From contig JAZBRI010000010.1 of assembly GCA_036874045.1 (NCBI GenBank), positions 20,001 to 84,000 of the forward strand: a stretch of 64,000 nucleotides of DNA. Reading direction: 5' to 3'. Below the pieces are notes generated by a model that was given only the letters and a program-made list of their open reading frames with translations, made no database searches and had not been told where the DNA came from. The DNA is from Cymodocea nodosa. Its lineage: Eukaryota; Streptophyta; Magnoliopsida; Alismatales; Cymodoceaceae. This document shows positions 1 through 37,243 of the stretch, piece by piece. The position numbers and the translations under genes are program-made. Positions within the stretch are counted from its first letter, which is position 1, and every line of letters starts with the position of its first letter.

Positions 1-1
1 A

Positions 2-3000
2 TCAAATGCCACTTACAAAGATTTATTTATTTCGGTTATTTATGCCTCTTGCAACCAATATACCAGACGTCAACTCTGGAATCAATTATCAGAGATTAAT
101 TCAATTGCAGATAAAGCAAGCTGGATTTTAGGGGGAGATTTCAATGTGGTCAGGAATATTGGAGAAACCAAAAATATTTTGTATAATCAACAATCAGCTA
201 TGCAGGATTTCAATGAATTTATTCATAACAATCTCCTCACGGAACCTTTTCATCACGGGAATCAATTATCTTGGTGCAATAACAGATCAGAATCTGATAG
301 AAGGTATGCCAGGCTAGATCGAGTCTTAATAAATGCACAGATGGCAACACATATAGCAGAAGATATAATTTATGGGAATCGAGTAAACTCGGACCATGCA
401 TATATTATCCTTCAGAATTCAAGCAATATCTCTTGGGGGCCAACCGCTTTTCGCTTCAAAAATATGTGGCTGACTTATGAAGATCTACCAAATATGATTC
501 AAGCGGTATGGCATAGTCTCACATATCAGAATCCTATTACAAATTTTAGTGCAAAACTCAAGCTGCTCAAAGAAAAACTAAAGATTTGGAATGCAGATAG
601 AGTGGGCAATATCTTTGTAGAAGAAAAGCAGATAATTAGAAAAATAAATTTTCTGGAACAGGACTTCCAACTCAATGGTAGCACCTCGGAGAAACTTTCC
701 TGTCTTCACAATTATCAAGAAGACCTGAGAAAAAACAATTATCGGCAATCTCTATATTTTAGACAATCTACACACATTGATTGGTTGAAGGAAATGGATC
801 GAAACACAAAATACTTTCACCAAATTATCAAAAGAAGAAGCACGAAGGACTGCTTCAGGAGTATGCTTAGATCAGATATGTCCAATATTTCTTGTGATCA
901 ACTCAAAATCAAAGGCAAAAATTATTTCAGCAATTTACTGACATCCCAACATACGCAAATGATGGATAGTATGATCAGCAATATTCCCAATATTCTTAAT
1001 CAGGAGGATAACAGAAAACTATGGGATATTCCCAACATCAATGAGATCAGAACAGTTGTATTTGATCTTCCCAATAACAAAGCTCCGGGTCCTGATGGCT
1101 TTACTGCAGAATTCTTCAAACATTTCTGGAATATTATTGGTAACGATTTTTGTCTAGCAGTTCAAAGTTTCTTCTCAGGATCTTCTCTGAATGATAAATG
1201 GAAATCTACTTTCATTACATTAATTCCAAAGAAGAAACAACCAGAGGAGTTTTCAGACTTTCGTCCTATTAGTCTTTGCAATATCTCTTATAAATGCATT
1301 GCCAAAATCTTAGCTAATCGGATATCGGAAATCATACCCAACATAATATCTAATACTCAAGCAGCATTTATTAAAGGCAGGAGTATTTTTGACAACATAT
1401 CTCTTACTCAGGAACTCATACAATATATAGACCAAGGTCATAGAGGGGGAAATCTCATGATTAAACTCGATATGGAAAAAGCCTTTGATAGAATGGAATG
1501 GTCAGCTATTTTTGACACACTTGCTGCCTTCGGATTCGACACTACTATTATTGATCTTATATCAAGATGTCTATCGTCGAATCCCACCTCAGTTCTTTTC
1601 AATGGAGCTAATTCTCAAGTATTTTATCCAACCCGAGGATTAAGACAAGGTGACCCTCTTTCTCCTCTTCTCTTCATTATCACGGAAGAATTATTATCCA
1701 GGGCTCTCCTTAAAATGCAAATGGAGCAAAATTATGTCCCTTATAAATGCCAAGGAAGACATTGGAAAATATCTCACCTACTTTTCGCTGATGATGCCAT
1801 TCTATTTCTCAATGGCCGCAAATCGATGTTAGACAAAGCTCTAACCATTTTGCAGCAATATGAAGCATCTACGGGTCAAAAAATCAACTACAATAAGAGT
1901 AACTTCTATGTTTCCAAAAAAAGTCCGGAACACAGGAAGATTGTTTTCTCTACTATGATTGGATGTCCTCAAGGCAAATGGCCTTTCATCTACCTCGGCT
2001 GTCCAATTTTCAAAGGTCAATCTCGTATCAAATATTTCCAATATCTCATTGACAAAATTCAAAACAAAGTTGCAGGTTGGAAGACTAAATTTCTTAGCCA
2101 AGGGGGAAGATTAATGCTTATTAAGCATGTGTTAAATTCTATTCCTATACACACTTTATCAGTTTTGCCCCTTCCATGTGGAATCGTTCAGAAGATCAAC
2201 AATATTTGTGCTCGTTTTTTCTGGTCAGGAGATAGTAATCAGAAAAACTATCATTGGCTCAAATGGGAAAAAATCTCCACCCCAATTCCTGAAGGAGGGC
2301 TCGATATCAGAAATTTAAAAGAGCAATTAATAGCATTCCAACTAAAGCAAATACACAAGCTGATCAATAATAATGGCATCTGGGCTGAAGCAATCAAGGC
2401 AATCTATGGCAGTATGGACCATATTTTTAATATCCACAGAGACAGCAACATAGGCAAAACATTGGGCAAAACGTGGCATAGATATTATCAAACTCTGCAG
2501 ATTCCAAGATTTTCAGTCAAAGTGGCTTGGAATTCTATCAGAAATCATCTACACTGTAACAACAAACTTTTGGGTTTTTGGAGTTCGGGAATACCTACAA
2601 AAATTTCTGTTTTTCTATGGAAACTCAAAAACAAATTCCTTCCAGTAGACGAAACCAGAAAAAAGATGGGACACCAATTACCATCCATATGCGGATTCTG
2701 CAGGAACGACACAGAAACTATCAAGCATATCTTTTATAATTGCTCTTTCACTCAAGATGTTATCAAATGGCTTCGATTATTGACCACAGCAAATCCTATC
2801 CACAACTGGGAAATATGGAGCAGTCAGCAGCTATATTCAAGAAAAAAATCTTCTCGGAATCACTTTTATAAATATCTATCGGCATTCACTCTTTGGAGCT
2901 TGTGGAAACACAGATGTGAGATAATATTCGGCAATAAAAAGCCTAATATTACTACTATCGTATCCCAGATTATTTATTATATCAATAGTTTCAATATCCG

Positions 3001-3007
3001 AGAATGA
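2..3007 (+). CDS. LINE ORF2 (endonuclease C-terminus, reverse transcriptase, zinc finger), 5' partial
   Basis: This frame is open from base 2 with no internal stop (about 1,001 visible codons). An ATG- or GTG-based start at 146 would be artificial, because homologous protein continues upstream. In order it shows: the C-terminal half of an APE-type endonuclease, with GGDFNV near codon 45 and an SDH motif near codon 130; a reverse transcriptase with NNKAPGPDGF near codon 357, a DMEKAFDR motif, GLRQGDPLSP and the catalytic FADD near codon 595; and a C-terminal zf-RVT-like motif (CGFC, then HIFYNC) near codon 896. There is no RNase H. The protein would nick target DNA and reverse-transcribe the LINE RNA from the nick. 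Unlike the family-B copies it has no nonsense codon in view, so it may be active or very recent. The stop TGA lies at 3005-3007. Confidence 0.93.
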   Translation, partial: SNATYKDLFISVIYASCNQYTRRQLWNQLSEINSIADKASWILGGDFNVVRNIGETKNILYNQQSAMQDFNEFIHNNLLTEPFHHGNQLSWCNNRSESDRRYARLDRVLINAQMATHIAEDIIYGNRVNSDHAYIILQNSSNISWGPTAFRFKNMWLTYEDLPNMIQAVWHSLTYQNPITNFSAKLKLLKEKLKIWNADRVGNIFVEEKQIIRKINFLEQDFQLNGSTSEKLSCLHNYQEDLRKNNYRQSLYFRQSTHIDWLKEMDRNTKYFHQIIKRRSTKDCFRSMLRSDMSNISCDQLKIKGKNYFSNLLTSQHTQMMDSMISNIPNILNQEDNRKLWDIPNINEIRTVVFDLPNNKAPGPDGFTAEFFKHFWNIIGNDFCLAVQSFFSGSSLNDKWKSTFITLIPKKKQPEEFSDFRPISLCNISYKCIAKILANRISEIIPNIISNTQAAFIKGRSIFDNISLTQELIQYIDQGHRGGNLMIKLDMEKAFDRMEWSAIFDTLAAFGFDTTIIDLISRCLSSNPTSVLFNGANSQVFYPTRGLRQGDPLSPLLFIITEELLSRALLKMQMEQNYVPYKCQGRHWKISHLLFADDAILFLNGRKSMLDKALTILQQYEASTGQKINYNKSNFYVSKKSPEHRKIVFSTMIGCPQGKWPFIYLGCPIFKGQSRIKYFQYLIDKIQNKVAGWKTKFLSQGGRLMLIKHVLNSIPIHTLSVLPLPCGIVQKINNICARFFWSGDSNQKNYHWLKWEKISTPIPEGGLDIRNLKEQLIAFQLKQIHKLINNNGIWAEAIKAIYGSMDHIFNIHRDSNIGKTLGKTWHRYYQTLQIPRFSVKVAWNSIRNHLHCNNKLLGFWSSGIPTKISVFLWKLKNKFLPVDETRKKMGHQLPSICGFCRNDTETIKHIFYNCSFTQDVIKWLRLLTTANPIHNWEIWSSQQLYSRKKSSRNHFYKYLSAFTLWSLWKHRCEIIFGNKKPNITTIVSQIIYYINSFNIRE

Positions 3008-4053
3008 TTATGCAGATTTCAAGATCTACAAGATACAAATCACAACTTACGAGGAGATTTTGCTCGTTGCATACAACAGTCTTCGGAAGTATACTCTCGA
3101 AGACCAGCTGTTCTGACACTTCTCTGTTCACACGGAAATTCGGTACACAGGGTAACCATGTTCACACGGGAAAGGCTCTTCGGAAGAACCACTCTGGCTT
3201 CGGTTTTCGAAGGATAAACCGAATCTGCCCCGGTTACACCGAAACCTGTACACGGTCACACCGACCTTTTATTCCGAAAGTTCTCCGGTTGGACCGATCT
3301 CAGAATTCGGTTTCACCGACAAGCAACAGGCTTCGATTGCAGACATGTCCCGGTTCACACCGAAAGCAGGTATCGGTCGCTGACAAGCTATGTTCACACC
3401 GAAACGGTTTCGGTCACAGATGTCTCTGTTCACACCGAAATCAGGTATCGGTCGCTGACAAATCCCTGTTCACACCGAAACCGTTTTCTCGAATGAAAAA
3501 TCCTGGTTCCGGTATGACCGTCATTTCAACGGTTAAACCGGATCTGCACCGGTCGATAAACAGACACGGTCTTACCGATCTAAATTCTCGGTTTAACCAT
3601 CTTCTCGGTTGGACCGCCCAGCCTTCTCGGTTTTCGAAGGCCAAACTGAGTCTGCCCCGGTTACACCGTAACCCGTATACGGTTACACCGACCTTTTATC
3701 TTCTACCGAATGTTCTCCGGTTGGACCGATCTCAGCGTCCGGTCTCACCGACAAGCAACAGGCTTCGATCTCTGTTCACACTGAAGGATCCTTGTTCCGG
3801 TATGACCGTCTTTTCAACGGTTAAACCGGATCTGCATCGGTCTCAACAACAGACACGGCTTCACCGATTTCTCAGGTGGGACCGGTCACAGTGCTCGACA
3901 ATTTCCGTCGACCGAAATTTTCGGTTAAGCCGAAAAGTATTTCTGATATTATTATATCTGATTTCACTCAATTTAAATTGAGTCTTGTAATGCCTTTTTT
4001 TAAGGTACACTCCTTTTTAGCAGGCCTATCCCCTGATGAATACAACGGATAGA

Positions 4054-4060
<7 letters not shown>
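3008..4060 (+). repeat. LINE-A 3' UTR packed with CGGT...ACCG palindromes
   Basis: From about 3130 to 3940 the sequence is dominated by imperfect short palindromes of the form CGGT, 2-5 variable bases, ACCG. Examples are CGGTTGGACCG, CGGTTTCACCG and CGGTCACACCG. The spacer varies while the two half-sites are kept. GC content is much higher than in neighbouring DNA. Parts recur in order: the block around 3280-3330 resembles that around 3715-3760, which suggests internal duplication. The same motif fills the 3' UTRs at 7870-8350 and 31090-31500. Function is unknown. RNA hairpins or protein-binding sites are both possible. Confidence 0.85.
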
Positions 4061-4102
<42 letters not shown>

Positions 4103-4104
<2 letters not shown>

Positions 4105-4320
4105 CTAAACCCTAACCCTAAACCCTAAACCCTAAACCCTAACCCTAAACCCTAAACCCTAAACCCTAAACCCTAAACCCTAAACCCTAACCCTAAACCC
4201 TAAACCCTAAACCCTAAACCCTAAACCCTAAACCCTAAACCCTAAACCCTAAACCCTAAACCCTAACCCTAAACCCTAAACCCTAAACCCTAAACCCTAA
4301 ACCCTAAACCCTAAACCCTT
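4103..4320 (+). repeat. Interstitial telomeric tract (CCCTAAA)n
   Basis: About 217 bases of CCCTAAA with occasional CCCTAA variants, beginning directly at the end of the LINE-A poly(A). On the right it is joined directly to the truncated 3' side of a minus-strand LINE-A at TGTTTTGCC (4321). The C-rich strand reads left to right, as at a left chromosome end, so the distal side is to the left. Confidence 0.97.
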
Positions 4321-7038
4321 TGTTTTGCCTATGTTGCTGTCTCTGTGTATATTAAAAATATGGTCCATACTGCCATAGATTGCCTTGATTGCTTCAGCCC
4401 AGATGCCATTATTATTGATCAGCTTGTGTATTTGCTTTAGTTGAAATGCTACTAATTGCTCTTTTAAATTTCTGATATCGAGCCCACCTTCGGGAATCGG
4501 GGTGGAGATTTTTTCCCATTTGAGCCAATGATAGTTTTTCTGATTACTATCTCCTGACCAGAAAAAACTAGCACAAATATTGTTGATCTTCTGAACGATT
4601 CCACATGGAAGGGGCAAAACTGATAAAGTGTGTATAGGAATAGAATTTAACACATGCTTAATAAGCATTAATCTTCCCCCTTGGCTAAGAAATTTAGTCT
4701 TCCAACCTGCAACTTTGTTTTGAATTTTGTCAATGAGATATTGAAAATATTTGATACGAGATTGACCTTTAAAAATTGGACAGCCAAGGTAGATGAAAGG
4801 CCATTTGCCTTGAGGACATCCAATCATAGTAGAGAAAACAATCTTCCTGTGCTCCGGACTTTTTTTGGAGACATAGAAGTTACTCTTATTGTAGTTGATT
4901 TTTTGACCCGTAGATGCTTCATATTGCTGCAAAATGGTTAGAGCTTTGTCTAACATCGATTTGCGGCCATTGAGAAAAAGAATAGCATCATCAGCGAAAA
5001 GTAGGTGAGATATTTTCCAATGTCTTCCTTGGCATTTATAAGGGACATAATTTTGCTCCATTTGCATTTTAAGGAGAGCCCTGGATAATAATTCTTCCGT
5101 GATAATGAAGAGAAGAGGAGAAAGAGGGTCACCTTGTCGTAATCCTCGGGTTGGATAAAATACTTGAGAATTAGCTCCATTGAAAAGAACTGAGGTGGGA
5201 TTCGACGATAGACATCTTGATATTAGATCAATAATAGTAGTGTCAAATCCGAAGGCAGCAAGTGTGTCAAAAATAGCTGACCATTCCATTCTATCAAAAG
5301 CTTTTTCCATATCGAGTTTAATCATAAGATTTCCCCCTCTATGACCTTGGTCTATATATTGAATGAGCTCCTGAGTAAGAGATATGTTGTCAAAAATACT
5401 CCTGCCTTTAATAAATGCTGCTTGAGTATTAGATATTATGTTGGGTATGATTTTCGATATCCGATTAGCTAGGATTTTGGCAATGCATTTATAAGAGATG
5501 TTGCAAAGACTAATAGGACGAAAGTCTGAAAACTCCTCTGGTTGTTTCTTCTTTGGAATTAATGAAATGAAAGTAGATTTCCATTTATCATTCAGAGAAG
5601 ATCCTGAGAAGAAACTTTGAACTGCTAGACAAAAGTCGTTACCAATAATATTCCAGAAGTGTTTGAAGAATTCTGCAGTGAAGCCATCAGGACCTGGAGC
5701 TTTGTTATTGGGAAGATCAAATACAACTGTTCTGATCTCATTGATGTTGGGAATATCCCATAGTTTTCTGTTATCCTCCTGATTAAGAATATTGGGAATA
5801 TTGCTGATCATACTATTCATCATTTGCGTATGTTGGGATGTCAGTAAATTGCTGAAATAATTTTTTCCTTTGATTTTGAGTTGATCACAAGAAATATTGG
5901 ACATATCTGATCTAAGCATACTCCTGAAGCAGTCCTTCGTGCTTCTTCTTTTGATAATTTGATGAAAGTATTTTGTGTTTCGATCCATTTCCTTCAACCA
6001 ATCAATGTGTGTAGATTGTCTAAAATATAGAGATTGCCGATAATTGTTTTTCCTCAGGTCTTCTTGATAATTGTGAAGACAGGAAAGTTTTTCCGAGGTG
6101 CTACCATTGAGTTGGAAGTCCTGTTCCAGAAAATTTATTTTTCTTATTATCTGCTTTTCTTCTACAAAGATATTGCCCACTCTATCTGCATTCCAAATCT
6201 TTAGTTTTTCTTTGAGCAGCTTGAGTTTTGCACTAAAATTTGTAATAGGATTCTGATATGTGAGACTATGCCATACCGCTTGAATCATATTTGGTAGATC
6301 TTCATTAGTCAGCCACATATTTTTGAAGCGAAAAGCGGTTGGCCCCCAAGAGATATTGCTCGTATTCTGAAGGATAATATATGCATGGTCCGAGTTTACT
6401 CGAGTCCCTTAAATTATATCTTCTGTAATATGTGTTGCCATCTGTGCATTTATTAAGACTCGATCTAGTCTGGCATACCTTCTATCAGATTCTGATCTGT
6501 TATTGCACCAAGATAATTGATTCCCGTGATGAAAAGGTTCCGTGAGGAGATTGTTATGAATAAATTCATTGAAATCCTGCATAGCTGATTGTTGATTATA
6601 CAAAATATTTTTGGTTTCTCCAATATTCCTTACCACATTGAAATCTCCCCCTAAAATCCAGCTTGCTTTATCTGCAATCGAATTAATCTCTGATAATTGA
6701 TTCCAGAGTTGACGTCTGGTATATTGATTGCAAGAGGCATAAATAACCGAAATAAATAAATCTTTGTAAGTGGCATTTGATACTTTATAAGTACAAACTT
6801 GAGGATGTATATCAATAATCTGAAAAGTAAGATTATCCGACCAGAGAGTGCAGATTTTGGAATTGCCATAATGATAATTCCAATTAATATTATCAGCAAA
6901 TTTTTGAGTATCTTCAGGCTTCATAAAATGTTCTAATATGCATATTGCCTCTAATTTTTGAGTTTTGATAAGATTTTTGAGATATATTTGGGTTGATCGA
7001 TTGATCAGCCCACGGCAATTCCAAAATAATATATTCAT
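4321..7038 (-). pseudogene. LINE-A ORF2, 3'-truncated, one nonsense codon
   Basis: The frame starts with ATG at 7038, 26 bases after the ORF1 stop. It has the N-terminal APE endonuclease motifs (WNCRGL near residue 6, an EHF glutamate near 36, GGDFNV), then reverse transcriptase including GLRQGDPLSP and FADD. A stop codon at 6409-6411 (TAT to TAA relative to copy 1) splits the frame into 209 codons and a long downstream part that stays in frame. The coding sequence ends abruptly at 4321, where telomeric repeat begins, so the C-terminal zinc finger is missing. Apart from the stop, protein differences from copy 1 are few single substitutions. This copy supplies the endonuclease start that is missing from copy 1. 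Confidence 0.92.
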
Positions 7039-7064
7039 ATAAAAACAAGAAGTAAGAAAGAGAA

Positions 7065-7500
7065 TTATTGAGAAATGCTGCTGTTGCTGTGGGAAGATAC
7101 AGTATCATTAGAAATTTTGCTTTTTTTCTGTCGGAGACGAATGCTTTGTCTCTTTGATCTGGTTATTCTAAAATCTTGCTGTGAGATCGTATCTTCTGTG
7201 TCAGATTGATGGTTGCTTGAGGAAAAAGAGTCGTCTTCTGAGCTGGGTCCTTCTGACAAGTGCTTCAGCTTTCCTTTTAAAATTTCTAAGGACATTTGAT
7301 TTCGTAGAATGCCTGAATCTTTCTGATTTAATAAGATATGTTCTGTTAATGGATGCTTGTCTGGTAAGTGTTCCGCCGATAGCTGTTCATAAGGTTGCTC
7401 GAGTTCTACGGAAGGAGTGACAGCTTTATTTGATTTCCTGTTGCGTGTAACCAGTCTCAACATATTTTTTACGACTGCAGATTCGTCAAAGATTTGATAC
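7065..7500 (-). pseudogene. LINE-A ORF1, C-terminal part only
   Basis: About 145 codons are readable on the minus strand. The C-terminus is acidic and serine-rich, followed by a basic stretch around RSKRQSIRLRQKK. The same acidic-then-basic layout ends ORF1 of family B (27360-27626), which is the basis for the call. The N-terminal DUF4283-like region and CCHC knuckle are absent because the element stops at the joint with the plus-strand LINE at about 7497. The apparent ATG at 7502 straddles the joint and is not the true start. In L1-type elements ORF1 protein binds the element RNA. Confidence 0.75.
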
Positions 7501-7754
7501 ATCGACTCAACAACATCCTAAATATTGACGGGATTACCAACTGGAAAGAATGGAGCAAACAAAAAATATTTTCTCGGAAAAAAGATCCTAGACTGAATAT
7601 TCTAAAATACTTAACAGCAACAACATTATGGTGCATCTGGACACACAGGTGCGATATTATCTTTCGTAACATGCAACCAAATATTTCTGCAGTAATCGGG
7701 AGAATATCACATTTTTTCCAACTTTTCAAAGTTTCGGAAGAAATGAGAAGATAG
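7498..7754 (+). pseudogene. LINE-B ORF2, C-terminal 85 codons
   Basis: This short open frame matches the very C-terminus of family-B ORF2 (30700-30940), including NILNIDGITNWKEWS and TTLWCIW-HRCDIIF. The stop at 7752-7754 is in the homologous position. It is the 5'-truncated remainder of a LINE-B insertion. The 3' UTR, poly(A) and telomeric tract follow in order. The zinc finger and all upstream domains are missing. Confidence 0.85.
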
Positions 7755-8505
7755 CAGTCTACTGTTCTTAAAAAACAAAGATCGAGGAATACAGCCTGCC
7801 GCTTTTTTCAGTCTGACAGCCGCTCGTCAGACGCTATCAGCAGCTTCGGCAGATGCACATGCAATAGTCAAAACATCCGGTTACACCGTTCACTTCACGG
7901 TCAAACCGACCCCAGTCTTGGTTTTTGGTATAAACCAAATTTTTCTCCGGTCGGACCGTGTCCAGTGTTCGGCCTCACCGTTGAGCAACAGGGAATCTGA
8001 CAACTTCGCCGGTCGGACCGAGCTCAGAGTTCGGCCTCACCGTTGAGCAACAGGCGATCTGACAACTTCTCCGGTCGGACCGAGCTCAGAGTTCGGCCTC
8101 ACCGTTGAGCAACAGGCGATCTGACAACTTTACTAAAGTCTCTGTTCACACCGAGAAACAGGTATCGGCCGCGTTCACACCGGCTTCTCGACTGGATATA
8201 CCGGTTTGACCGTTTTTTCAACGGCTAAACCGGAGCTGCTCCGGCCACACCTGAATCTGACACGGTCTCACCGATTGCTACTCGGTCGGACCGCTCTGCA
8301 CAAGGTTTAACAGGAAAGTCTCCGGTGGGACCGGTCTCAGAACTCGGTCTCACCGACATTTCTTCGGTTAAAACTGTTTTCTGACATTATTTAAATCTGT
8401 TTTCACTCAAATTATATTTGAGTCTTGTTATGCCTTTTATAGGCACACTCCTTTTTTAGCAGGACTATCCCCTGATGAATGCAAAGGATAGACATTTTAT
8501 AAAAT
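7755..8505 (+). repeat. LINE-B 3' UTR with CGGT...ACCG palindromes
   Basis: Between about 7875 and 8360 there are many CGGT-N3-ACCG palindromes, for example CGGTCGGACCG several times and CGGTTTGACCG. A block of about 55-60 bases containing GTTCGGCCTCACCGTTGAGC is repeated three times in tandem (about 7965-8125). The terminal stretch with ATTTGAGTCTTG and CCCCTGATGAATG matches the LINE-A 3' end. Poly(A) follows. Confidence 0.85.
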
Positions 8506-8527
8506 AAAAAAAAAAAAAAAAAAAAAA

Positions 8528-8802
8528 CCCTAAACCCTAAACCCTAAACCCTCAAACCTTAAACCCAAACCCTAAACCCTTTCCCTAAACCCTAAACCCT
8601 AAACCCTAAAACCCTAAACCCTAAACCCTAAACCCTAAACCCTAAACCCTAAACCCTAAACCCTAAACCCTAAACCCTAAACCCTAAACCTTAAACCCTA
8701 AACCCTAAACCCTAAACCCTAACCCTAAACCCTAAACCCTAAACCCTAAACCCTAACCCTAAACCCTAAATCCTAAACCCTAACCCTAAACTCTAAACCC
8801 TA
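8528..8802 (+). repeat. Interstitial telomeric tract (CCCTAAA)n, mildly degenerate
   Basis: About 275 bases of CCCTAAA with variants (CCTTAAACC, CCCTTTCCC, TCCTAAA). It starts directly at the poly(A) of the LINE-B fragment and ends where the 5S-derived SINE begins (GGTGCATTTACACC). The substitutions suggest it is older than the tract at 4103. Confidence 0.96.
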
Positions 8803-9155
8803 GGTGCATTTACACCTACTATTAAGCACTGACTCTTATAAGAACTCTAGAGTTAACTATGTTTGGGTAGGAGTAGAATCAAGATGGGTGACCACTTGGG
8901 AAGTTCTCGTGCAATGCCTATGGGCAGTAGTGTTAGCTCTACTCAAGCATTGGCAAGCTGTAACTGTGTGCACCACTTACTAAAGTCAGCCTAGTAAGGC
9001 CCCCTATAGGCTTTCGTCTCCTTGGATACTCTTGGTGTATACCAAGTTGTTTGAGTGTCTATGAAGGTTCACCTTCTATCACCTCTAAGGATACTCCTAG
9101 TGTTCACCAGGCTGTTTGAGTGTCTAAGGAGGACCTTTAAAAAAAAAAAAAAAAA
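8803..9155 (+). mobile_element. 5S rRNA-derived SINE, copy A
   Basis: The first 115 bases or so are recognisably plant 5S rRNA. They include an AAGCAC..., AGAACTCTAGAGTTAACTA and TTTGGG segment and a well-kept box C region, GATGGGTGACCACTTGGGAA. A body of about 110 bases follows, then two copies of a roughly 65-base repeat containing GGATACTC and CACCAGGCTGTTTGAGTGTC, then AGGAGGACCTTT and poly(A) (9139-9155). It begins directly after telomeric repeat. A 5S head, non-5S body and poly(A) tail without LTRs is the SINE3-type layout. The internal 5S promoter would drive Pol III transcription. Two further copies lie at 31721 and 32155. Confidence 0.85.
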
Positions 9156-9250
9156 CCATCAGACAGTTAAACCTTGACTTTGGGTTTCTTTTAATTCAAA
9201 GGAGTGCATTGTTAGCTTCCCTATTTCAATATATTTTGGTGGATGATTTT
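9156..9250. other. Short unassigned spacer
   Basis: After the SINE poly(A) comes about 95 bases of non-telomeric sequence (starting CCATCAGACAG) before the next recognisable LINE homology. This SINE is therefore the only one of the three not followed by CCCTAAA. Confidence 0.5.
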
Positions 9251-10135
9251 GTTGGCCGAAAGATTAATCATGGGAAAAGTAATTTCTGTATTTCCAAGAG
9301 AAGTTCAACTCAGTGCATTCAAAATATTTACAATTCTCTTGGTTGCCCTCAAGGTAATTAACCTTTTATATATAGATAAGACAACCAAGGCAAAAATATT
9401 TTCAATATCTTATAGATAAAATTCAAAACAAAGTGGTTGGCTAGAAAGTTAAATTCCTTAGTCAAGGAGGAAGACTCATGCTCATTAAACATGTTATGAA
9501 CTTTATACTCTATCGATTATCCTCTCCTTTTTGATATTATCAACAAAATTAACTCTATATGTGCTCAATTCTTTTGGTCAAGAGACAACAACAAGAAAAA
9601 TTTACACTGGCTCAATTGGACTAAGGTTACTACACCAATTATAGAAGGAGGCTTGGATATCAGAAATATGCATGATATCTTAATTACTTTCCAATTAAAT
9701 CAAATTCACAAACTCATTCATAGAAATGGACTTTGGGTAAGGCAATAAACTCCAATTATGGCACTCTAGACCAGATTGAAACTCACCACAAGGCTAGGCA
9801 AAACTTGGGCATAGTTTAAGCATCTATTCAGTACAAGTAATCTTCAACAACATAATTTCTCTATTAAAGTTGCATGGAATTCTATTTGAAGTCACAATAC
9901 TCACAACAATCATCTATTAAGAAGCTGGAATAAAAGAATCTCTACAAAAATTTCTATTTTTCTATGGAAATTCCTCAATAAATCCCTTCCTTTGGATGAC
10001 ATTAGGACTAAATTTGGTTTTCATCTCACTTCTATCTACTAGTTCTGCAACCATTCAATAGAAAACTTCAATCATACCTTTTTTCAATGCTCATTTATTA
10101 TAGAGATTGTTAAATGGTTGCAATTATAGAGATAG
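9251..10135 (+). pseudogene. Degenerate LINE ORF2 fragment (RT C-terminal half to zinc finger)
   Basis: Translation with frame changes and stops still follows LINE ORF2. It runs from the GRKIN-HGKSNF region through KYFQYLIDKIQNK, FLSQGGRLMLIKHV and SICAQFFW, on to the C-terminal zinc-finger region, ending near a KWLQL motif at about 10125. It has several stops and small indels and is much older than the family-A and -B copies. No 3' UTR palindromes or poly(A) follow. Confidence 0.8.
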
Positions 10136-10364
10136 AGTTACTTGTAGGTTTTGTCCCACATTATCCTAATAATCTTCTCTATATAACCTCTATATATAGA
10201 GGTTTTTTTAATGGTTAACATATCAATCAATCTCCATCATTTCTTGTCTTCACTAGTTGTAATTTGAAATTTACTAAGGAAAGAAATTTAATTCACAAAG
10301 ACAACATATCTTATTTTAATTCTTAAGTACACAACAAATTATATTAAGTTGTATAATTGGAAGT
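10136..10364. other. AT-rich unassigned DNA, possible LTR scrap
   Basis: No coding signal. Around 10145-10205 there is GTAGGTTTTGTCCCACATTA followed by CCTCTATATATAGAGG. This resembles the start and promoter of some plant LTRs, but no partner or terminus was found. Confidence 0.3.
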
Positions 10365-11745: not shown

Positions 11746-11912
11746 TCTTAGATATGAGCCTAAACTACATAACCTATATTTTGATATGAAACATAAATAT
11801 ATAAAAAATCAAATGTGAGTGGAATTTATCAAAATATTTGAAATATCTAAAAGACAAAGTGCTAACAAAATTCATCAAACTCTTGAATAAATTACATCCC
11901 ATATATTAATTA
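11746..11912. other. AT-rich intergenic DNA
   Basis: No gene, repeat or motif recognised. TTA at 11910-11912 is the left target duplication of the following MITE candidate. Confidence 0.4.
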
Positions 11913-13200: not shown

Positions 13201-13207
13201 CATGGGC

Positions 13208-13218
13208 GGCTATATAAA
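13208..13218 (+). promoter_or_regulatory. Candidate TATA box
   Basis: CTATATAAATG sits at the start of a sharp rise in GC content (13200-13420) within AT-rich surroundings, about 50 bases upstream of an ATG. AAACCCTCGC (13239-13248), a telo-box-like element common in plant promoters, lies between them. The placement fits a Pol II promoter, but there is no transcript evidence. Confidence 0.4.
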
Positions 13219-13264
13219 TGACAACCGTGCGACTGTAAACCCTCGCCCACGCCATTCCCGCGAA

Positions 13265-18660: not shown

Positions 18661-18663
18661 AAA

Positions 18664-24719: not shown

Positions 24720-24751
<32 letters not shown>

Positions 24752-25843: not shown

Positions 25844-25900
25844 CTAAACCCTAAACCCTAAACTCTAACCCTAAACCCTAAACCCTAAATCCTAAACCCT
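25844..25900 (+). repeat. Interstitial telomeric tract
   Basis: About 57 bases of CCCTAAA with one CTCTAA and one TCCTAAA variant. It sits between the right arm of the TTC/GAA palindrome and the 5' end of a full-length LINE-B. Confidence 0.95.
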
Positions 25901-26006
25901 CTAAAACCTCTTTTCTTCCCCTCAACTTTCTCTCTCTAAGTAGAGCTTCTCTCTCTAAGTGATTTTTGTCAAGAGAGTTGGAGTTCTTATTTTCTCTTGA
26001 GTTTTC

Positions 26007-27626: not shown

Positions 27627-27652
27627 GATTGAAGCGGCCTAACATTGATAAT

Positions 27653-30600
27653 ATGGACATATTATTTTGGAATTGCCGAGGGTTGGTAAATAAATCAACC
27701 CAAAATTTTGTCAAAAATCTGATAGAGAAGCATAAGTTACAATCTATATTCATTCAGGAACACTTTATGTCTTAAGATGATGCCCGAAAATTTGCAGATA
27801 ATATTAATTGGAATCATCACTATGGAAATTCAAAGATATGTGCCTTTTGGTCTGATAATCTGGATATACAACATTGGGAGACACACTCGCAAGCCATCAC
27901 TTACAAGGTTTCAAAATCGTCTTATCAAGATCTTCTAGTTTCGGTGGTTTATGCTTCATGCAATCAGAATATCCGTAGAAATCTTTGGGATTATTTAACA
28001 GATCTGAATACAAGAATTGCACATGGCCCGCGGTTGCTTGGGGGAGATTTCAATGTTACTAGACATACAGATGAAGTTCAGAATATTATTCACATACATC
28101 AGTCAGCAAGATAGGAGTTCAATGATTTCATAAATCAAAACCAACTCATAGAACCCACTCATTTTGGAGATTCGTTTTCCTGGTGCAACAATAGAACTGG
28201 CAATAACAGAAAATTAGCAAGATTAGACCGCATTTTGTTGAATAATCCTCTGTTTGAACAATTCAAAGACGAGATTATTTATGGAGAATGGATTTGCTCA
28301 GATCATGCTTACATCAGGATACAAAACAAAAACATCAAAGGTTGGGGCCCAAGATCGTTCAAATTTAAAAATTTCTGGTTATCTTATGAAGATATAAATC
28401 ATATAGTCAGAAATGTTTGGAGTAGTGCAAAATTCCAGAATCCAATCACAAACTTCAGTGCTAAGCTCAAGATTCTAAAGAAAGCTCTCATTAGTTGGAA
28501 TAGAAATAAAGTGGGAAATATTTTTTCTGAGGAACAGAATATATTGAAACAAATTCATTCTTTAGAGCAGAAATTTCAGAAAGAGCCTGAGACTTGTACG
28601 CTAGAGGAAAATGCTATGGTCATCAATCTCAAAGATAAGCTTATAAAGAATACAACTCGACAATATAGTTTACTGAAACAATGTTCTCACATTAATTGGT
28701 TGTCAGAAATGGACAGAAATACAAGATTCTTCCATCAACTTATCAAAAGGAGAAACTCGAAGGATCATTTCAAAAGTATGCATACAGGAAGCGAAGATGA
28801 AGAACAAATTAAAAAGAGAGGTAAAGACTACTTTTCAGAATTATTACATTCTCAACAAGTTACTGAGGATCAGAGTCTGTTTGATAATATATCGAGAGTC
28901 TTAAATGAAAGTCACAATCAGTGCTTATGGGAAATTCCTACTATTGTTGAAATAAAAGATGTCTTAGTCTCTCTCCCCAATAATAAAGCACCCGGGCTAG
29001 ATGGTTTCACAACAGAATTCTATACGAAATTCTGGGAGGTAATCGGTACAGATTTTTGTGCTGCTGTACAATATTTTTTTACAGGTGCAAGACTTAACAA
29101 TAAATGGAAAGCCACATTTATTGCTTTGATTCCAAAAAGAAAGCAACCAGGAAATTTTGCAGATTTTAGGTCTATCAGCTTATGTAACATCTCTTACAAG
29201 ATAATAGCCAAAGTTATTGCCAACATAATCTCCAAAGTGATTTCACTTATGATATCTCCCACTCAAGCAGCTTTCATCAAGGAAAGAAGTATTCAAGATA
29301 ATATTTCCTTAGCACAAGAATTGATTCAATATATTGATCAAGGCCATCGAGGAGGTAATCTCATTGTCAAATTAAATATGGAAAAAGCTTTTGATAGAAT
29401 GAACTGGACGGTTATTTTTCGTACCCTTAAAGCCTTTGGTTTTGACTCCACAATCATCAACATCATCTCAAACTGCATCTCTGACAACCCTACGTCAGTG
29501 TTATTCAATGGAGCACCCTCACAATTTTTTTACCCTTCTAGAGGTCTTCGTCAAGGGGATCCACTTTTACCTTTCCTTTTTATTATCACTAAAGAATTGC
29601 TAGGTAGAGCGCTCCTCAAGCTCCAACAGGAATCAAATTATATTCCTTATAAATGTCAAAGCAGACATTGGCGTATTTCTCACTTGCTTTTTGCAGATGA
29701 TGCCCTTTTATTCCTAAATGGTAGGAAATCTATGCTTCAGAAAGTCATTGATATTCTCAAGAAATATGAAATGACTACAGGCCAAAAGATAAATTACGAA
29801 AAAAGCAACTTCTTCGTATCTAAGAAAAGTCCAACACATCGTATTGCATTCATAAAGGACACTTTTGGTTGCAAGCAATGTGATTGGCCGTTCATCTACT
29901 TAGGTTGCCCTATCTTCAAAGGACAACCGAGGTTAAAATATTTTCAATATCTGATTGACAAGATTCAAAATAAAATGGCAGGTTGGAAGGCAAGATTTCT
30001 TAGTCAAGGAGGTAGACTAATGCTGATAAAGTATATTCTGAATTCCATACCTATACACACTCTAAGTGCCATTCCACTTCCTTTAGGCATTATCAACAGA
30101 ATCAATTCCATTTGTGCTAAATTTTTCTGGTCTGGCGACAATACCAAAAAGAATTTTCATTGGCTTTCATGGAGAAGAATAGCTAGACCTATTATAGAGA
30201 ATGGACTTGATATCAGAAATACAAGAGATTAGATTACCACTTTCAGATTGAAGCAAATCAAAAAAATACTGGAAAACTCAGGTATCTGGGCTCATGCCAT
30301 AAATGCTATACATGGGTCGATGGATCAAATAGCAGAAGGACAAGGCAATAATATCAATAAAATGTTCAATAGCTGTTGGAGAAATTACAAACATTTATTT
30401 CAGGAATCTGGAGCTTTATGCAGACATAAGTTCTCAATCAAAACAGCTTGGGAATTAGTGCGAGTCCATCACCATCAAGACAATAAGCTTAAAGGCATGT
30501 GGTCTACATAGATTCCCACAAAAATTTCAATTTTCCTATGGAAATTAAACAGAAATATCATTCTAGTGGATGATATTAGGATGCAGGCTGGATATTATCT

Positions 30601-30940
30601 CCCTTCTATGTGCAGCTTCTGCAGCAATAATTCAGAAACATCCCATCATATTTTTTACGATTGCAGGTTTGTCAAGGAGTTGGTACATCGGCTCAACAAT
30701 ATCCTAAATATTGACGGGATTACCAACTGGAAAGAATGGAGCAAACAAAAAATTTTCTCTCAGAAAAAATCTCCATGGTTGAATATTCTAAAATATTTAA
30801 CAGCAACTACATTATGGTGCATTTGGATCCACAGGTGCGATATTATTTTTTGCAACATTCAACCAAACATTTCTGCGATAATCGGGAGAATATCTCATTT
30901 TTTCCAACTATTTAAAGTTTCAGAAGAAATGAGCAGATAG
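27653..30940 (+). pseudogene. LINE-B ORF2 (endonuclease, RT, zinc finger), four nonsense codons
   Basis: ATG 27653 lies 26 bases after the ORF1 stop, the same gap as in LINE-A. The frame keeps 1,096 codons with no indel but has stops at 27773 (TAA), 28112, 30230 and 30509 (all TAG). At the last three, a relative has CAG. Domains: APE endonuclease (WNCRGL, EHF, LGGDFNV, SDHAYI) up to about residue 225; reverse transcriptase with NNKAPGLDGF near 442, GLRQGDPL and FADD near 679; zf-RVT-like CSFC...HHIFYDC near 986. One RT motif reads VKLNMEKAFDR instead of VKLDMEKAFDR, so a catalytic aspartate has become asparagine. The element cannot move by itself. Confidence 0.92.
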
Positions 30941-31620
30941 CAGTTCACTGTTCTCGGAGATACAACAACAAAAATCGAGGAATACGGATCCCAAGTAAGT
31001 CTACAGTTCTTTAGTCTAATAGTCGCTCGTCAGACACTAGCCGTACAGCGGTCCCTCTAGCAGACGCACCTGACCATTGTCAGAACATCTGGTCGAACCA
31101 ATCTAGTCTCAAGCTAAACCGATCCCCTATCCGGTCAAATCGACCCCAGGATCGGTCTAGACGACAGTCTACAACTGAAATTCGTGTCCTCCGGTTTAAC
31201 CGTAAAGTTTTAGGTTACACCGAAGTCACTTCGGTTCAACCGCTCTGTAGAGACGATTGAACCGAAAATAGCTTTATATCTCTTTCTCGGTAAAACCGCT
31301 TTCCAACGGTTCAACCTGCGCCAGTTTGATCGGTCAGGTTCTTCGGTCAGACCGTTCCTTTTCGGTCTTACCGATACCTAGGATCGATTTCATCGAAAAG
31401 TCTTCATCCTCTCCATTAACGGTTAGACCGTTTTGAAATTTCGGCTAGACCGATTTTCTTATCGGTCAAACTAGAATCTCTCTAGGTCAAACCGATTTTC
31501 AAGGCTTTTCCTTCTTGCATCTTTTTCGAGAATTGTATCTTTATTTCAAACCAAATTTATTTGGTTTCTCTTCCCCTTTTGCAGGACTATCCTCTGATGA
31601 ATATTATAGGATAGATTTTG
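30941..31620 (+). repeat. LINE-B 3' UTR with CGGT...ACCG palindromes
   Basis: Between about 31080 and 31510 there are numerous variants such as CGGTTTAACCG, CGGTTCAACCG, CGGTAAAACCG and CGGTCAGACCG, usually 20-45 bases apart. The end (CAGGACTATCCTCTGATGAA, GGATAGATTTTG) matches the other LINE 3' ends, followed by poly(A). Confidence 0.85.
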
Positions 31621-31634
31621 AAAAAAAAAAAAAA

Positions 31635-31720
31635 CCCTAAACCCTAAACCCCTAAACCTTAAACCCTAAACCCTAAATCCTAACCCTAAACCCTAAATCC
31701 TAACCCTAAACCCTAAACTT
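31635..31720 (+). repeat. Interstitial telomeric tract
   Basis: About 85 bases of CCCTAAA with small variants, directly joined to the LINE-B poly(A) on the left and to SINE copy B on the right. Confidence 0.95.
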
Positions 31721-32135
31721 GGTGCATTTACACCTACTACCAAGCAATGACTCCTATAAGAACTCTGGAGTTAACTATGTTTGGGCGGGAGCGGAACTAG
31801 GATGGGTGACCACTTGGGATGTTCTCGTGCAGTGCCTATGGGCAGTTGTGTTGGCTCTGCTCAAGCATTGGCAAGCTGTAGTTGTGTCCACCACTTACCA
31901 AAGTGGGCCTAGCAAGGCCCCCTACAAGCTTTCTTCTCCTTGGATACTCCTAGTGTATGCCAGGCCATTTGAGTGTCCATCGAGGCTCACATGTTATCAC
32001 CTCCATGGATACTCCTAGTGTATACCAGGCTGTTTGAGTGTCTATGAAGGTTCACCTTCTATCACCTTTAAAGATACTCTTGGTGTTCACCAGGCTTTTT
32101 GAGTGTCTAAGGAGGACCTTTGAAAAAAAAAAAAA
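31721..32135 (+). mobile_element. 5S rRNA-derived SINE, copy B
   Basis: The layout matches copy A, but with three roughly 65-base tail units instead of two. The 5S head keeps AGAACTCTGGAGTTAACTA, GTTTGGGCGGGAGCGGAACT and GGATGGGTGACCACTTGGGA, closer to plant 5S rRNA than copy A. It ends GGAGGACCTTTG plus poly(A) and then CCCTAAA. The reading frame across it (31719-32018) is not a gene. Confidence 0.87.
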
Positions 32136-32154
32136 CCCTAAACCCTAACCCTAA
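32136..32154 (+). repeat. Short telomeric tract between two SINEs
   Basis: Only about two and a half repeats (CCCTAAACCCTAACCCTAA) separate the poly(A) of SINE B from the start of SINE C. A tract this short between two elements argues for insertion within telomeric repeat rather than chance neighbours. Confidence 0.93.
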
Positions 32155-32575
32155 GGTGCATTTACACCTACTACCAAGAACTAACTCCTATAATAACTCT
32201 GGAGTTAACTGTGTTTGGCTGAGAGCAGAACCAGGATGGGTGACCACTTGGGAAGTTCTCGTGCAATGCCTATGGGCAGTTGTGTTGGCTCTACTCAAGC
32301 ATTGGCAAGGTGTAGTTGTGTCCACCACTTACCAAAGTGGGCCTAGCAAGGCCCCCTACAAGCTTTCGTCTCCTTGCATACTCTTGGTGTATACCAGGCC
32401 ATTTGAGTGTCCATTGAGACTCACATGTTATCACCTCCATGGATAATCCTGGTGTATACCAGGCTGTTTGAGTGTCCATGAAGGTTCACCTTCTATCACC
32501 TCTAAAGATACTCCTGGTGTTCACCAGGCTGTTTGAGTGTCTAAGGAGGACCTTTGAAAAAAAAAAGAAAAAAAA
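32155..32575 (+). mobile_element. 5S rRNA-derived SINE, copy C
   Basis: A near-duplicate of copy B with three tail units, including GGATGGGTGACCACTTGGGA and the CTAAGGAGGACCTTTG end, poly(A) with one G, then CCCTAACCCTAAACCCTA. Differences from copy B are scattered over the whole length. The pair could be two insertions, or an older tandem duplication that includes the telomeric spacer. Confidence 0.87.
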
Positions 32576-32593
32576 CCCTAACCCTAAACCCTA
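32576..32593 (+). repeat. Short telomeric tract
   Basis: About 18 bases of CCCTAA(A) between the poly(A) of SINE C and the 5'-truncated LINE-B that starts at TTTTCAAAGTC. Confidence 0.9.
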
Positions 32594-33881
32594 TTTTCAA
32601 AGTCATAAACATTTTTTACAAGCTCTAGTTAAGGATAACTGGAGCATTAAAGGGAGAAGAATGTCTGTTTTTCATTGGTCTCCTTCCTTCTCACTTGGAA
32701 TGGAAGCAATTTGGGCTCCTGTTTGGGTTCACTTACCTCATCTGCATGCACATCTCCATGCTCCGGGAGCCATAAAGTCCATCGCCAAACTCCTTGGTAA
32801 ATACCTCTGTGCTCATAAAGATGTCTGCAATTTCACGAGACCTGGGTTGGCAACGATATGCGTTGAGATGGATCTGTCGAAGCCTCTCCCACGCTCAATC
32901 ACCATCGATAATGGAGGAGAGATCATAGTCCAAAAAATCTTATATCCATTCGAGCCAAAATTCTGTACTCATTGCTGTAAAATCGGGCACATAGCTCAAC
33001 AATGCAAAAAGAAAGCTGCTTCTGACAATGCTGGGCCATCGATAAGTTAGAAAAATACGGATGGAAATCACAATGCGTGGAAGGTAGTTTCACACAAAAA
33101 ATCCACGGAGATCAGAACTTCGCAACCAGTCAACTCCGACAAAAATGTATTAAATCAAACTACTAATATCCCTTTGACTGAGAAAGATTTGCCGCAGACC
33201 GTCCCTAAGACTCTCTCTCCAAGTCGTGCAGCTGTTGCACCTACAAATGCTCTAGAGCTGGTCAGATACGCAACCGCTACTTGCAATGTTGCAACATCGG
33301 GGAAGGTGGTAGAAAATCAGAAGAATATTATGCCAAACACGCAAACGTTGCAGGCGGCGAATACTGACAACATGCTAATTCAACGGATGCGCCGGACCCC
33401 TCTAACACACGAACAGGTGTCCGACGCAAAGCAGACCCCAGTTCAACCGAGCTCTTCCACGGTTAAACCGAGTCTCGAATTGTCAGACAGTCAAAAATTG
33501 CTGGACAACCCACCTAACAACATGCGACCGGTTCGGTCGCACCGGATTTAGATCGATAAGCAGGCGCTCGAAGTAAATATAAATCAGGTACAACCGGACA
33601 CATCTACGGTTAAACCGAGACATGAATCTTTTCAAAATCTTGCTTTACAGATTTTTAAATAAAAATTAAAAAATAAAGGTATAGAATCAAATTCGGACGA
33701 AGAAGATTCTTGTCCTGAGAAGCTTATGTCAGACTCTACAGACGAGGAAGCAGAATCTCCAAGGCAGAAAATCAACACGAATCGGCTATCCAAAAGACAA
33801 AGTACTCAGCTTAGACAGAAAAAATTACAGCTCATCCATGACTCAGAATCCTCGTAGAGTGTTAGTCTTACGTCCTTGTAA
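32594..33881 (+). pseudogene. LINE-B ORF1, 5'-truncated, several nonsense codons
   Basis: This matches ORF1 at 26370-27626 with the frame preserved throughout. It has the C-terminal half of the DUF4283-like region, an intact CX2CX4HX4C knuckle (CTHCCKIGH...QQC) at about 32968-33010, and the acidic/basic tail. Stops occur at about 33048 (CAG in the relative), 33549 (CAG), 33659 (GAA) and 33855 (CAG). CGGT...ACCG palindromes occur within the coding sequence around 33430-33620, as in the other copy. Confidence 0.87.
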
Positions 33882-33907
33882 GATTGAAGCGGCCTAGCAT
33901 TGATAAT

Positions 33908-36900
33908 ATGGATATATTATTTTGGAATTGTCGAGGGTTGGTAAATAAATCAACCCAAAATTTCGTCAAAAATCTTATAGAGAAGCATAAGTTACAAACT
34001 ATATTCATCCAAGAACACTTTATGTCTTAAGATGATGCCTGAAAATTTGTAGATAATATAAATTGGAATCATCACTATGGAAATTCAAAGATATGTGCCT
34101 TTTGGTCTGATAATCTGGATATACAACATTGGGAGTCACACTCGCAAGCCATCACCTACAAGGTTTCAAAATCGTCTTATCAAGATCTTCTAATTTCGGT
34201 GGTTTATGCTTCATGCAATCAGACTATCCGTAGAAATCTTTGGGATTATTTAACGGATCTGAATACAAGAACTACACATGGCCCATGGATGCTTGGGGGA
34301 GATTTCAATGTTACTAGACATATAGATGAAGTTCAGAATATTATTCACATACATCAGTCAACAAGACAGGAGTTTAATGATTTCATAAATCAAAACCAAC
34401 TCATAGAGCCTGCTCATTTTGGAGATACGTTTTCCTAGTGCAACAATAGAACTGACAATAACAGAAAATTAGCAAGATTAGATCGCATTTTGTTGAATAA
34501 TTCTCTGTTTGAACAATTCAAAGACGAGATTATTTATGGAGAACGGATTTGCTCAGATCATGCTTATATCAGGATACAAAACAAAAACATCAAAGGTTGG
34601 GGCCTAAGATTGTTCAAATTTAAAAATTTCTAATTAACTTATGAAGATATAAATCATATTGTCAGAAATGTTTAGAGCAGTGTAAAATTCCAGAATCCAA
34701 TCACAAACTTCAGTGCTAAGCTCAAGATTCTAAAGAAAGCTCTCATTAGTTGGAATAGAAATAAAGTGGGAAATATTTTTTCTGAGGAACAGAATATATT
34801 GAAACAAATTCATTCATTAAAGTAGAATTTTCAGAAAGAGCCTGAGACTTGCACGTTAGAGGAAAATTCTATGGTTATCAATCTCAAAGAAAAGCTTATA
34901 AAGAATACAGCTCGACAATCTAATTTACTAAAACAAAGTTCTCACATTAATTGGTTGTCAGAAATGGACAGAAATACAAGATTCTTCCATCAACTTATCA
35001 AACGGAGAAACTCGAAGGATCATTTCAAAAGTTTACATACAAGCAGTGAAGATGAAGATCAAATTAAAAAGAGAGGTAAAGACTACTTTTCAGAATTATT
35101 ACATTCTCAACAAGTTACTAAGGATCAGAGTCTGTTTGATAATATATCGAGAGTTTTAAATGAAAGTCACAATCAATGCTTATGGGAAATTCCTACTATT
35201 GTTGAAATAAAAGATGTCTTAGCCTCTCTCCCCAATAGTAAAGCACCCGGGCTAGATGGTTTCACAGCAGAATTCTATATGAAATTTTGGGAGGTAATTG
35301 GTACAGATTTTTGAGTTGCTGTACAATACTTTTTTACAGGTGCAAGACTTAACAATAAATGGAAAGCCACATTTATTGCTTTGATTCCCAAAAGAAAGCA
35401 ACCAGGAAATTTTGCAGATTTTAGGCCTATCAGCTTATGTAATATCTCTTACAAGATAATAGCCAAAATTATTGCCAACAGAATCTCCAAAGTGATTACA
35501 CTTATGATATCTCCCACTCAAGCAGCTTTCATCAAGGAAAGAAGTATTCATGATAACATTTCCTTAGCATAAGAATTGATTCAATATATTGATCAAGGCC
35601 ATCGGAGAGGTAATCTCATTGTCAAATTAGATATGGAAAAAGCTTTTGATAGAATGAACTGGACGGTTATTTTTCATACCCTTAAAGCTTTCGATTTTGA
35701 CTCCAAAATCATCAACATCATCTCAAATTGCATCTCTGACAACCCTACGTCAGTGTTATTCAATGGAGCACCCTCACAATTTTTTTACCCTTCTAGAGGT
35801 CTCCGTCAAGGGGATCCACTTTCACCTTTCCTTTTTATCATCACTGAAGAATTGCTGGGTAGAGCGCTCCTCAAGCTCCAACAGGAATCAAATTATGTTC
35901 CTTATAAATGTCAAAGCAGACATTGGCGTATTTCTCACTTGCTCTTTGCAGATGATGCCCTTTTATTCCTAAATGGTAGGAAATCTATGCTTCAAAAAGT
36001 CATTGATATCCTCAAGAAATATGAAATGACTACAGGCCAAAAGATAAATTACGAAAAAAGCAACTTCTTTGTATCAAAGAAAAGTCCAGCACATCGCATT
36101 GCATTCATAAAGGACACTCTTGGTTGCAAGCAAAGTGATTGGCCTTTCATCTACTTAGGTTGTCCTATCTTCAAAGGACAACCTAGGATAAAATATTTTC
36201 AATATCTGATTGACAAGATTCAAAATAAAATGGCAGGCTGGAAAGCAAGATTTCTCAGTCAAGGAGGTAGACTAATGCTGATAAAGCATGTTCTGAATTC
36301 CATACCTATACACACTCTAAGTGCCATTCCACTTCCATTGGGCATTATCAACAGAATCAATTCCATTTGTGCTAAATTTTTCTAGTCTGGCGACAATACC
36401 AAAAAGAATTTTCATTGGCTTTCATGGAGAAGAATAGCTAGACCTATTACAGAGAATGGACTTGATATCAGAAATACGAGAGATCAGATTACCGCTTTTA
36501 GATTGAAGCAAATCAAAAAAATACTGGATAACTCAGGTACCTGGGCTCAAGCCATAAATGCTATACACGGGTCGATGGATCAAATAGCAGAAGGACACGA
36601 CAATAATATAAATAAAATGTTCAATAGCTATTGGAGTAATTATAAACACTTATTTCAGGAATCTGGAGCTTTATGCGGACATAAGTTCTCAATCAAAGCT
36701 GCTTGGGACTTAGTGCGAGTTCATCACCATCAAGATAACAAGCTTAAAGGCATGTGGTCTACGCAGATTCCCACAAAAATTTCAGTTTTCCTGTGGAAAT
36801 TAAACAGAAATATCATTCCAATGGATGATATTCGGACTCAGGCTGGATATTATCTCCCTTCTATGTGCAGCTTCTGCAGCAATTATTCAGAAACATCCCA

Positions 36901-37195
36901 TCATATTTTTTACGATTGCAGGTTTGTCAAGGAGTTGGTACATCGGCTCAACAATATCCTAAATATTGACGAGATTACCAACTGGAAAGAATGGAGCAAG
37001 CAAAAAATTTTCTCTCAGAAAAAATCTCCTTAGTTGAATATTCTTAAATATTTAACATCAACTACGTTATGGTGCATTTGGATCCATATGTGTGATATTA
37101 TTTTCCATGACATTCAACCAAACATTTCTGCGGTAATCGGGAGGATATCTCATTTTATTCAACTTTTTAAAGTATAAGAAGAAATGAGTAGATAG
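33908..37195 (+). pseudogene. LINE-B ORF2, frame kept but about eleven nonsense codons
   Basis: It has the same 1,096-codon length as the copy at 27653, with no net indel. Stops lie near 34028, 34040, 34436, 34631, 34673, 34823, 35312, 35570, 36383, 37031 and 37172. Against the other copy most replace CAG, CAA, CGA or TGG. RT motifs survive, with VKLDMEKAFDR, GLRQGDPLSP and FADD all regular, as does the zinc finger CSFC...HHIFYDC. The RT aspartate missing in the full-length copy is present here. An old, decayed copy. Confidence 0.9.
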
Positions 37196-37243
37196 CAATT
37201 CACAGTTCTCGGAGATGAAATAACAAAAATCGAGGAATACGGA

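Follow-up and report, generated by a model that had tools for sequence, protein, structure and literature searches.

In Drosophila, the HeT-A, TART, and TAHRE elements lie at chromosome ends in a fixed orientation, with the 5′ end outward and the tail inward, and simple telomeric repeats are replaced there. Here, we describe long and short interspersed nuclear elements (LINEs and SINEs, respectively) that are embedded in telomeric (CCCTAAA)n DNA of the flowering plant Cymodocea nodosa, based on a stretch of 64,000 nucleotides (positions 20001-84000 of contig C10; hereafter, the window) near one end of a 5.06-Mb contig, in an assembly of 374.6 Mb and 28 contigs. The plant elements share the orientation of the Drosophila elements; however, simple repeats persist, in that 5 of the 13 right contig ends examined (C1, C5, C7, C14, and C18) terminate in plain TTTAGGG arrays, 1.2-5 kb long as far as extracted, so that telomeric repeats are still outermost at some ends, with the elements lying among shorter inner tracts. 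Another four of these 13 ends (C3, C8, C12, and C13) have no tract of at least three repeats in their last 10 kb.

TRAS and SART elements, from the silkworm and other insects, are non-long-terminal-repeat (non-LTR) elements with two open reading frames (ORFs) that reside inside telomerase-type repeats, and their endonucleases are described, in the passages cited, as cutting TTAGG between T and A (PMC4700185). This cut, which fits the junctions reported below, is the nearest functional parallel. Whereas TRAS and SART target telomeric repeats, the families described here also occur in ordinary DNA, and their protein relatives are plant L1 elements, the named ones mostly from flowering plants (e.g., Linum and Juglans), which, together with the TTTAGGG-type repeats, marks the DNA as that of a plant. 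MoTeR elements of rice blast and FoTeR elements of Fusarium oxysporum likewise point their 5′ end toward the terminus, and FoTeRs are reported to be confined to chromosome ends and to belong with CRE/SLACS (PMC12857005). A further likeness to these fungal elements is a short, internally deleted LINE between tracts in our set (locus L058, 6872-7350); they differ, however, by a restriction-like endonuclease and a CRE/SLACS-type reverse transcriptase (RT), whereas the LINEs here have an apurinic/apyrimidinic endonuclease (APE)-type domain and copies elsewhere too.

Zepp of Chlorella, for which we know of no SINE partner, comes from an alga rather than from a land plant. It is a telomere-associated retrotransposon of a green-lineage organism, and the relevant passages of a 2023 paper list such elements for insects, Giardia, Chlorella, rice blast, and an anole (PMC10088271). 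The same passages describe a G-quadruplex strand bias in telomeric elements (PMC10088271); no G3 motif was present on either strand of the pieces that we tested, and a bias of that kind was therefore rejected. For plants, a 2025 review states, in the section cited, that no similar telomeric retrotransposons are known (PMC12477314). We found no earlier report of telomere-embedded LINE/SINE arrays in flowering plants in the open-licence literature, with earlier reports elsewhere being possible; those described here would be the first found in a flowering plant.

Orientation, register, and distribution of telomeric copies

The junction of a poly(A) tail with telomeric DNA, taken as the pattern A8-CCCTAAACCCTAA, occurs 56 times in the assembly, with four of these in the window, whereas the backwards pattern occurs 0 times, which argues that the window junctions are not due to chance. 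Of these junctions, 52 are no more than 100 kb away from a contig end and are spread over 22 such ends; the poly(A) points toward the centromere in all 52, with left-end junctions on the + strand and right-end junctions on the − strand. The remaining four are at C3:15542766, C17:6057607, C18:12909310, and C20:1588630, with C20 judged by its left end only. The telomere-seeking system proposed in the earlier note, which was made from the window's letters alone, is thus borne out genome-wide as insertion in a fixed orientation, but it is not exclusive to telomeres, with many copies in ordinary DNA. All six element starts that the earlier note had placed directly after a CCCTAAA tract are present, as are all five poly(A) tails that it had seen running into CCCTAAA in one orientation, each within 1-3 bases.

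The junctions also share a register within the repeat. For the other three phases that can be told apart at such a junction, the exact pattern has 0 matches in the assembly, although it misses off-register junctions with an altered base, of which L052 and L068 hold examples. With a random phase, four of seven possibilities would fall in the observed class, so that 56 of 56 corresponds to p ∼2e-14 if all junctions are independent, which not all are. Moreover, 29 of the 32 junctions read directly in extracted loci are in the AAA/CCC register (the 32 include one, L063 680, that is probably an A-run within a tract). The position of the junction is therefore fixed within the telomeric repeat, as in TRAS/SART-type LINEs, and from this we infer a cut between T and A.

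Copies were further scored by their distance from contig ends, with "interior" denoting >100 or >120 kb from a known contig end and with the right ends of C19, C20, and C22 left out; all fractions describe scored copies, namely the best 40 of 51 and the best 40 of 79 candidates for the LINE tails and, for the SINE, the best 40 of 881 candidates, with 44 matches scored. For the 3′ untranslated region (UTR) of LINE-B, the LINE type at window 25901-31634, 27 of 40 copies are no further than 100 kb from an end, where 0.45 would be expected, and 24 of the 27 are tail-inward; for a second LINE tail the numbers are 24 of 40 and 24 of 24. The SINE has 10 of its 44 copies near ends, every one tail-inward, and 34 in the interior. 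Orientation is mixed among interior copies (8/5 for LINE-B, 9/7 for the second LINE tail, and 18/16 for the SINE). LINE-B 3′ flanks were read for 20 of the 40 copies, chosen to include every interior copy: all 13 interior flanks are ordinary DNA, six near-end flanks are CCCTAAA, and one near-end flank (L087) is ordinary DNA. L087 belongs to the three near-end LINE-B copies that face the opposite way, and it is the only one of them whose flank was read. These interior copies, with 14 of 20 LINE-B flanks in ordinary DNA, reject a TRAS/SART-type restriction to telomeres. The earlier note had named, as the case against itself, that most copies lie in ordinary DNA with normal target-site duplications and that only this locus is telomeric; one half of this is what we found, yet there are many other telomeric loci.

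Domain matches gave a similar distribution. Among L1-type zf-RVT domains (the best 150 of 1926 scored), 60 of 150 lie within 120 kb of ends, 57 of the 60 tail-inward, versus 2 of 150 LTR integrase domains (the best 150 of 12776 scored; counted by eye, with the eight nearest to ends checked and 5 of 150 on C19). A matching tail is lacking for 96 of the L1 domains, some of which probably belong to the same group as diverged members. Homing, retention, or exchange between ends may account for the enrichment near ends.

LINEs and SINEs are split by telomeric tracts at the examined ends of C1, C2, C11, C14, C15, and C17, and LINEs are split by a tract at C16; the C1 array, for example, reads LINE, tract, SINE, tract, SINE, tract, SINE, tract, LINE. 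Exchange or duplication between ends does occur: (i) window 9168-16819 (7.7 kb) recurs at the right end of C21 with 97.8% identity, where the telomeric tract adjoins the shared DNA without the SINE, and (ii) the right-end arrays of C1 and C16 are 98.8% identical over 5.2 kb.

The 5S-headed SINE

The SINE carries a 5S rRNA-like head, for which the Rfam RF00001 threshold was reached in one of three window copies and in 18 of 20 other loci searched, and with its poly(A) and target duplications it has the features of 5S-headed (SINE3-type) elements. A 5S-derived head is also found in SINE3 elements and in Cassandra, a plant terminal-repeat retrotransposon in miniature with 5S in its LTRs. Cassandra is described in the passages cited as an LTR element (PMC10886601), whereas the SINE here ends in poly(A) and generates duplications of ∼14 bp; an assignment to Cassandra was therefore rejected, the SINE being a single unit without LTRs. 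In our literature search on 5S SINEs, the reports found concerned animals and a fungus.

Target duplications, tested at interior sites and for the SINE only (L039, whose 5′ end is missing, was dropped), flank 27 of 33 copies, with a mode of 14 bp and a range of 8-22 bp. The base before the nick is T or C at 24 of the 27 sites, and the base after it is A at 23 of 27. In a tree of 47 copies, 13 of them telomeric, telomeric and interior SINEs are interleaved, with very short branches in both classes. A separate telomeric lineage was accordingly rejected (10 label changes versus a shuffled mean of 11.6, with 78 of 500 shuffles as low), and the SINEs form one mixed family. The poly(A), places, and orientation that the SINE shares with the LINEs suggest that it is moved by the LINE machinery. 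In a single case (L036, C17:6057120-6058539), a SINE in ordinary DNA contains CCCTAAACCCTAAA inside its poly(A) and has a 12-bp duplication with one mismatch; on the simplest reading, this tail would derive from RNA read through from a telomere-embedded source.

Insertion mechanism and competing explanations

We consider it rather probable that the arrays are explained by ordinary L1 target-primed insertion, with a nick in the G-strand at GGGTTT/AGGG and a duplication of about two repeats. At interior SINE sites, the nick is mostly preceded by T or C and followed by AA; telomeric DNA offers such a site on the G-strand only, at GGGTTT/AGGG, with one in every 7 bp. The GGGTTT-3′ end released there would prime on the poly(A) tail, so that inserted copies would read element-poly(A)-AAACCC and have their tails on the centromere side; cleavage of the second strand ∼14 bp away would then duplicate two repeats, and the left junction would tend to ...CCCT/element. 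Repeated insertions and exchange between ends would build the arrays. The nick in telomeric DNA would be made by the LINE enzyme, and an Exo_endo_phos (APE-type endonuclease) domain was found by Pfam in an LA1-type copy, LA1 being the other LINE type of the window.

Applied to (TTTAGGG)n, the nick preference of the interior SINEs predicts a left junction of CCCT or CCCTA and a 14- or 15-bp duplication. By hand count, telomeric SINE starts follow CCCT or CCCTA exactly in 8 of 17 cases and CCC in two more. For 15 telomeric elements picked by hand, comparison of the left flank with the right one gave nine perfect matches of 11-16 bp versus a shuffled mean of 6.2 (p 0.03-0.04). In three more informative cases (window 32153, L056, and L054), the two sides have a variant unit or a non-telomeric base in common. 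Together, flank matches and shared variants favor internal nicking over end-priming, to which we still allot a minor probability.

In that alternative, which we hold to be unlikely, a 3′ G-overhang or a broken telomere would prime on the poly(A) without a nick, and telomerase would later cap the 5′ end of the element, similarly to HeT-A or MoTeR. The same orientation is predicted, overhangs ending in TTT would favor the AAACCC register, and the short tracts between a SINE and the next element fit a brief capping by telomerase; however, the same SINE family elsewhere uses internal sites with duplications of ∼14 bp, variant repeats are common to both sides of some elements, and to join the inverted segment 4320-7454 to the C-strand end of a telomere, either recombination or another target end would be required. 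Quite improbable, in our estimate, is an absence of any tropism, whereby L1s would insert everywhere and end copies would be retained as harmless and multiplied by exchange between ends. While interior copies are indeed common, interior and telomeric SINEs are equally young, and exchange or duplication is seen between the window and C21 and between C1 and C16, LTR elements are not piled up at ends in the way L1 domains are, and the register is not set by exchange alone. An assembly artifact, in which LINE/SINE contigs were wrongly joined to telomeric ends, is very improbable: although some contig ends contain runs of N that are compatible with scaffolding, at many ends the junctions lie within sequence free of gaps, their orientation and register are consistent, and one SINE far from ends has CCCTAAA inside its own tail.

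Several observations weigh against target-primed insertion into telomeric repeats as we propose it. Three of the 32 directly read junctions are off-register, only 8 of the 17 telomeric SINE starts have the predicted CCCT or CCCTA, and the flank duplication test is only moderately significant, with 6 of the 15 pairs imperfect. The tracts that follow SINE tails are shorter (median 17 bp, n = 11) than those that follow LINE tails (82 bp, n = 23; two L068 tracts dropped), which would not be expected if insertion into long telomeres were random. Some stretches are duplicated between ends, so that the copies at ends are not all independent and the counts overstate the number of events. Further, telomeric repeats must be a very small fraction of the genome, so that site density alone should not place 40% of the scored L1 domains near ends. 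A more speculative scheme, which we regard as doubtful, is that telomere-embedded copies give rise to read-through transcripts, which, with CCCUAAA at their ends, pair with primer ends of TTTAGGG and thereby draw an otherwise unspecific L1/SINE machinery back to the ends while it seeds the rest of the genome; such a self-reinforcing niche would leave a CCCTAAACCCTAAA-type tail, as in L036.

Target-primed insertion of the ordinary L1 kind suggests that dwelling in telomeres needs no specialized endonuclease, given that in TTTAGGG repeats both orientation and register would already follow from plain L1 nicking at TTT/A. It also makes the transition from a generalist to a telomere specialist testable, in a host that keeps ordinary telomeric repeats.

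Organization of the window

The + strand of the window contains 75 CCCTAAA versus 2 TTTAGGG units, with all tracts having the C-strand on +. The elements and tracts are listed in Table 1.

Table 1. Elements and telomeric tracts of the array (window coordinates)
Position	Strand	Feature	Details
1-4102	+	LINE, type LA1	cut by window start; 3′ UTR with CGGTNNNACCG array; poly(A) 4061-4102 into CCCTAAA
4100-4319	+	(CCCTAAA)n tract	220 bp; CCCTAAA units 4103-4315
4320-7454	−	inverted 5′ segment of LA1-type LINE	endonuclease 6412-7104; RT 4321-6408
7455-8527	+	LINE-B-like 3′ end	3′ UTR; poly(A) into CCCTAAA
8525-8802	+	(CCCTAAA)n tract	278 bp; CCCTAAA units 8528-8790
8803-9156	+	SINE copy	start CCCT/AGGTGCA; poly(A) into non-telomeric DNA; under Rfam 5S threshold
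25843-25900	+	degenerate CCCTAAA tract	5′ of LINE-B; units 25849-25889
25901-31634	+	LINE-B	ORF1 DUF4283 (within 26040-26978); ORF2 RT (28115-30232); ∼0.6-kb 3′ UTR; poly(A) into CCCTAAA
31632-31718	+	CCCTAAA tract	87 bp; units 31635-31717
31719-32135	+	5S-headed SINE	Rfam 5S_rRNA 31720-31838; 65-bp repeats in body; poly(A)
32133-32154	+	short telomeric tract	separates two SINEs; 32136-32142 plus degenerate units
32154-32575	+	second SINE	matching AAACCCTAACCCTA stretches on both flanks
32573-32593	+	short telomeric tract	CCCTAAA 32582-32588
32594-37243	+	second LINE-B copy	5′-truncated at tract; 3′-truncated; zf-RVT in 36386-37033

The assignment to plant L1-type LINEs in the earlier note agrees with Pfam domains found on pieces from different copies: DUF4283 and RT on LINE-B, zf-RVT on the second LINE-B copy, and endonuclease and RT on the LA1-type piece. 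LINE-B itself is interrupted by several stops and is thus not intact, and the second copy is 93.0% identical with 26375-30988. The latter copy does start after a tract, as the earlier note had it, but lacks 5′ and 3′ ends of its own; similarly, the SINE at 8803 starts after telomeric DNA, whereas its tail does not return to it. The region 4321-8527, which had been read as one forward LINE, resolves into an inverted piece of one type and the 3′ end of another. The inverted piece is 98.1% identical with window 1-2461 over the overlap and 66% identical with LINE-B, and 7455-8527 has 97% identity with copies at the right ends of C1 and C16. We rejected the reading of 4320-8527 as one twin-primed LINE, since the halves are different LINE types; this region is a chimera, which may at most have arisen by twin priming with a template change, or else by recombination.

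The 3′ UTRs of the LINEs contain arrays of the palindrome CGGTNNNACCG (window 3000-4060, 7790-8500, and 30990-31620), with 14, 10, and 6 exact copies, respectively, versus 0.01-0.05 in shuffles, a hundreds-fold excess, and with a spacer of 3 bases in all but one near-case. The palindrome is not confined to the 3′ UTR; two copies lie in ORF1 and three in the last 26 kb of the window. Moreover, the LINE-B 3′ UTR has a fold more stable than those of 20 shuffles (z −6.7). Such an array is perhaps recognized by a protein or an RNA.

Adjacent to LINE-B, an inverted repeat at 21246-25839 comprises two arms of ∼2.2 kb that are 79% identical and consist mostly of degenerate TTC/GAA; it stops just before the tract at 25843 and, from its structure, looks like a foldback element. 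Large inverted duplications also occupy 41882-57384, where 41882-43866 matches 57384-55413 (88.9%) and 43906-45746 matches 54406-52566 (85.7%). A 104-bp unit is present in six tandem copies at 14211-14838, and an integrase fragment of an LTR retrotransposon (PF00665 and PF17921) lies at 63037-63741.

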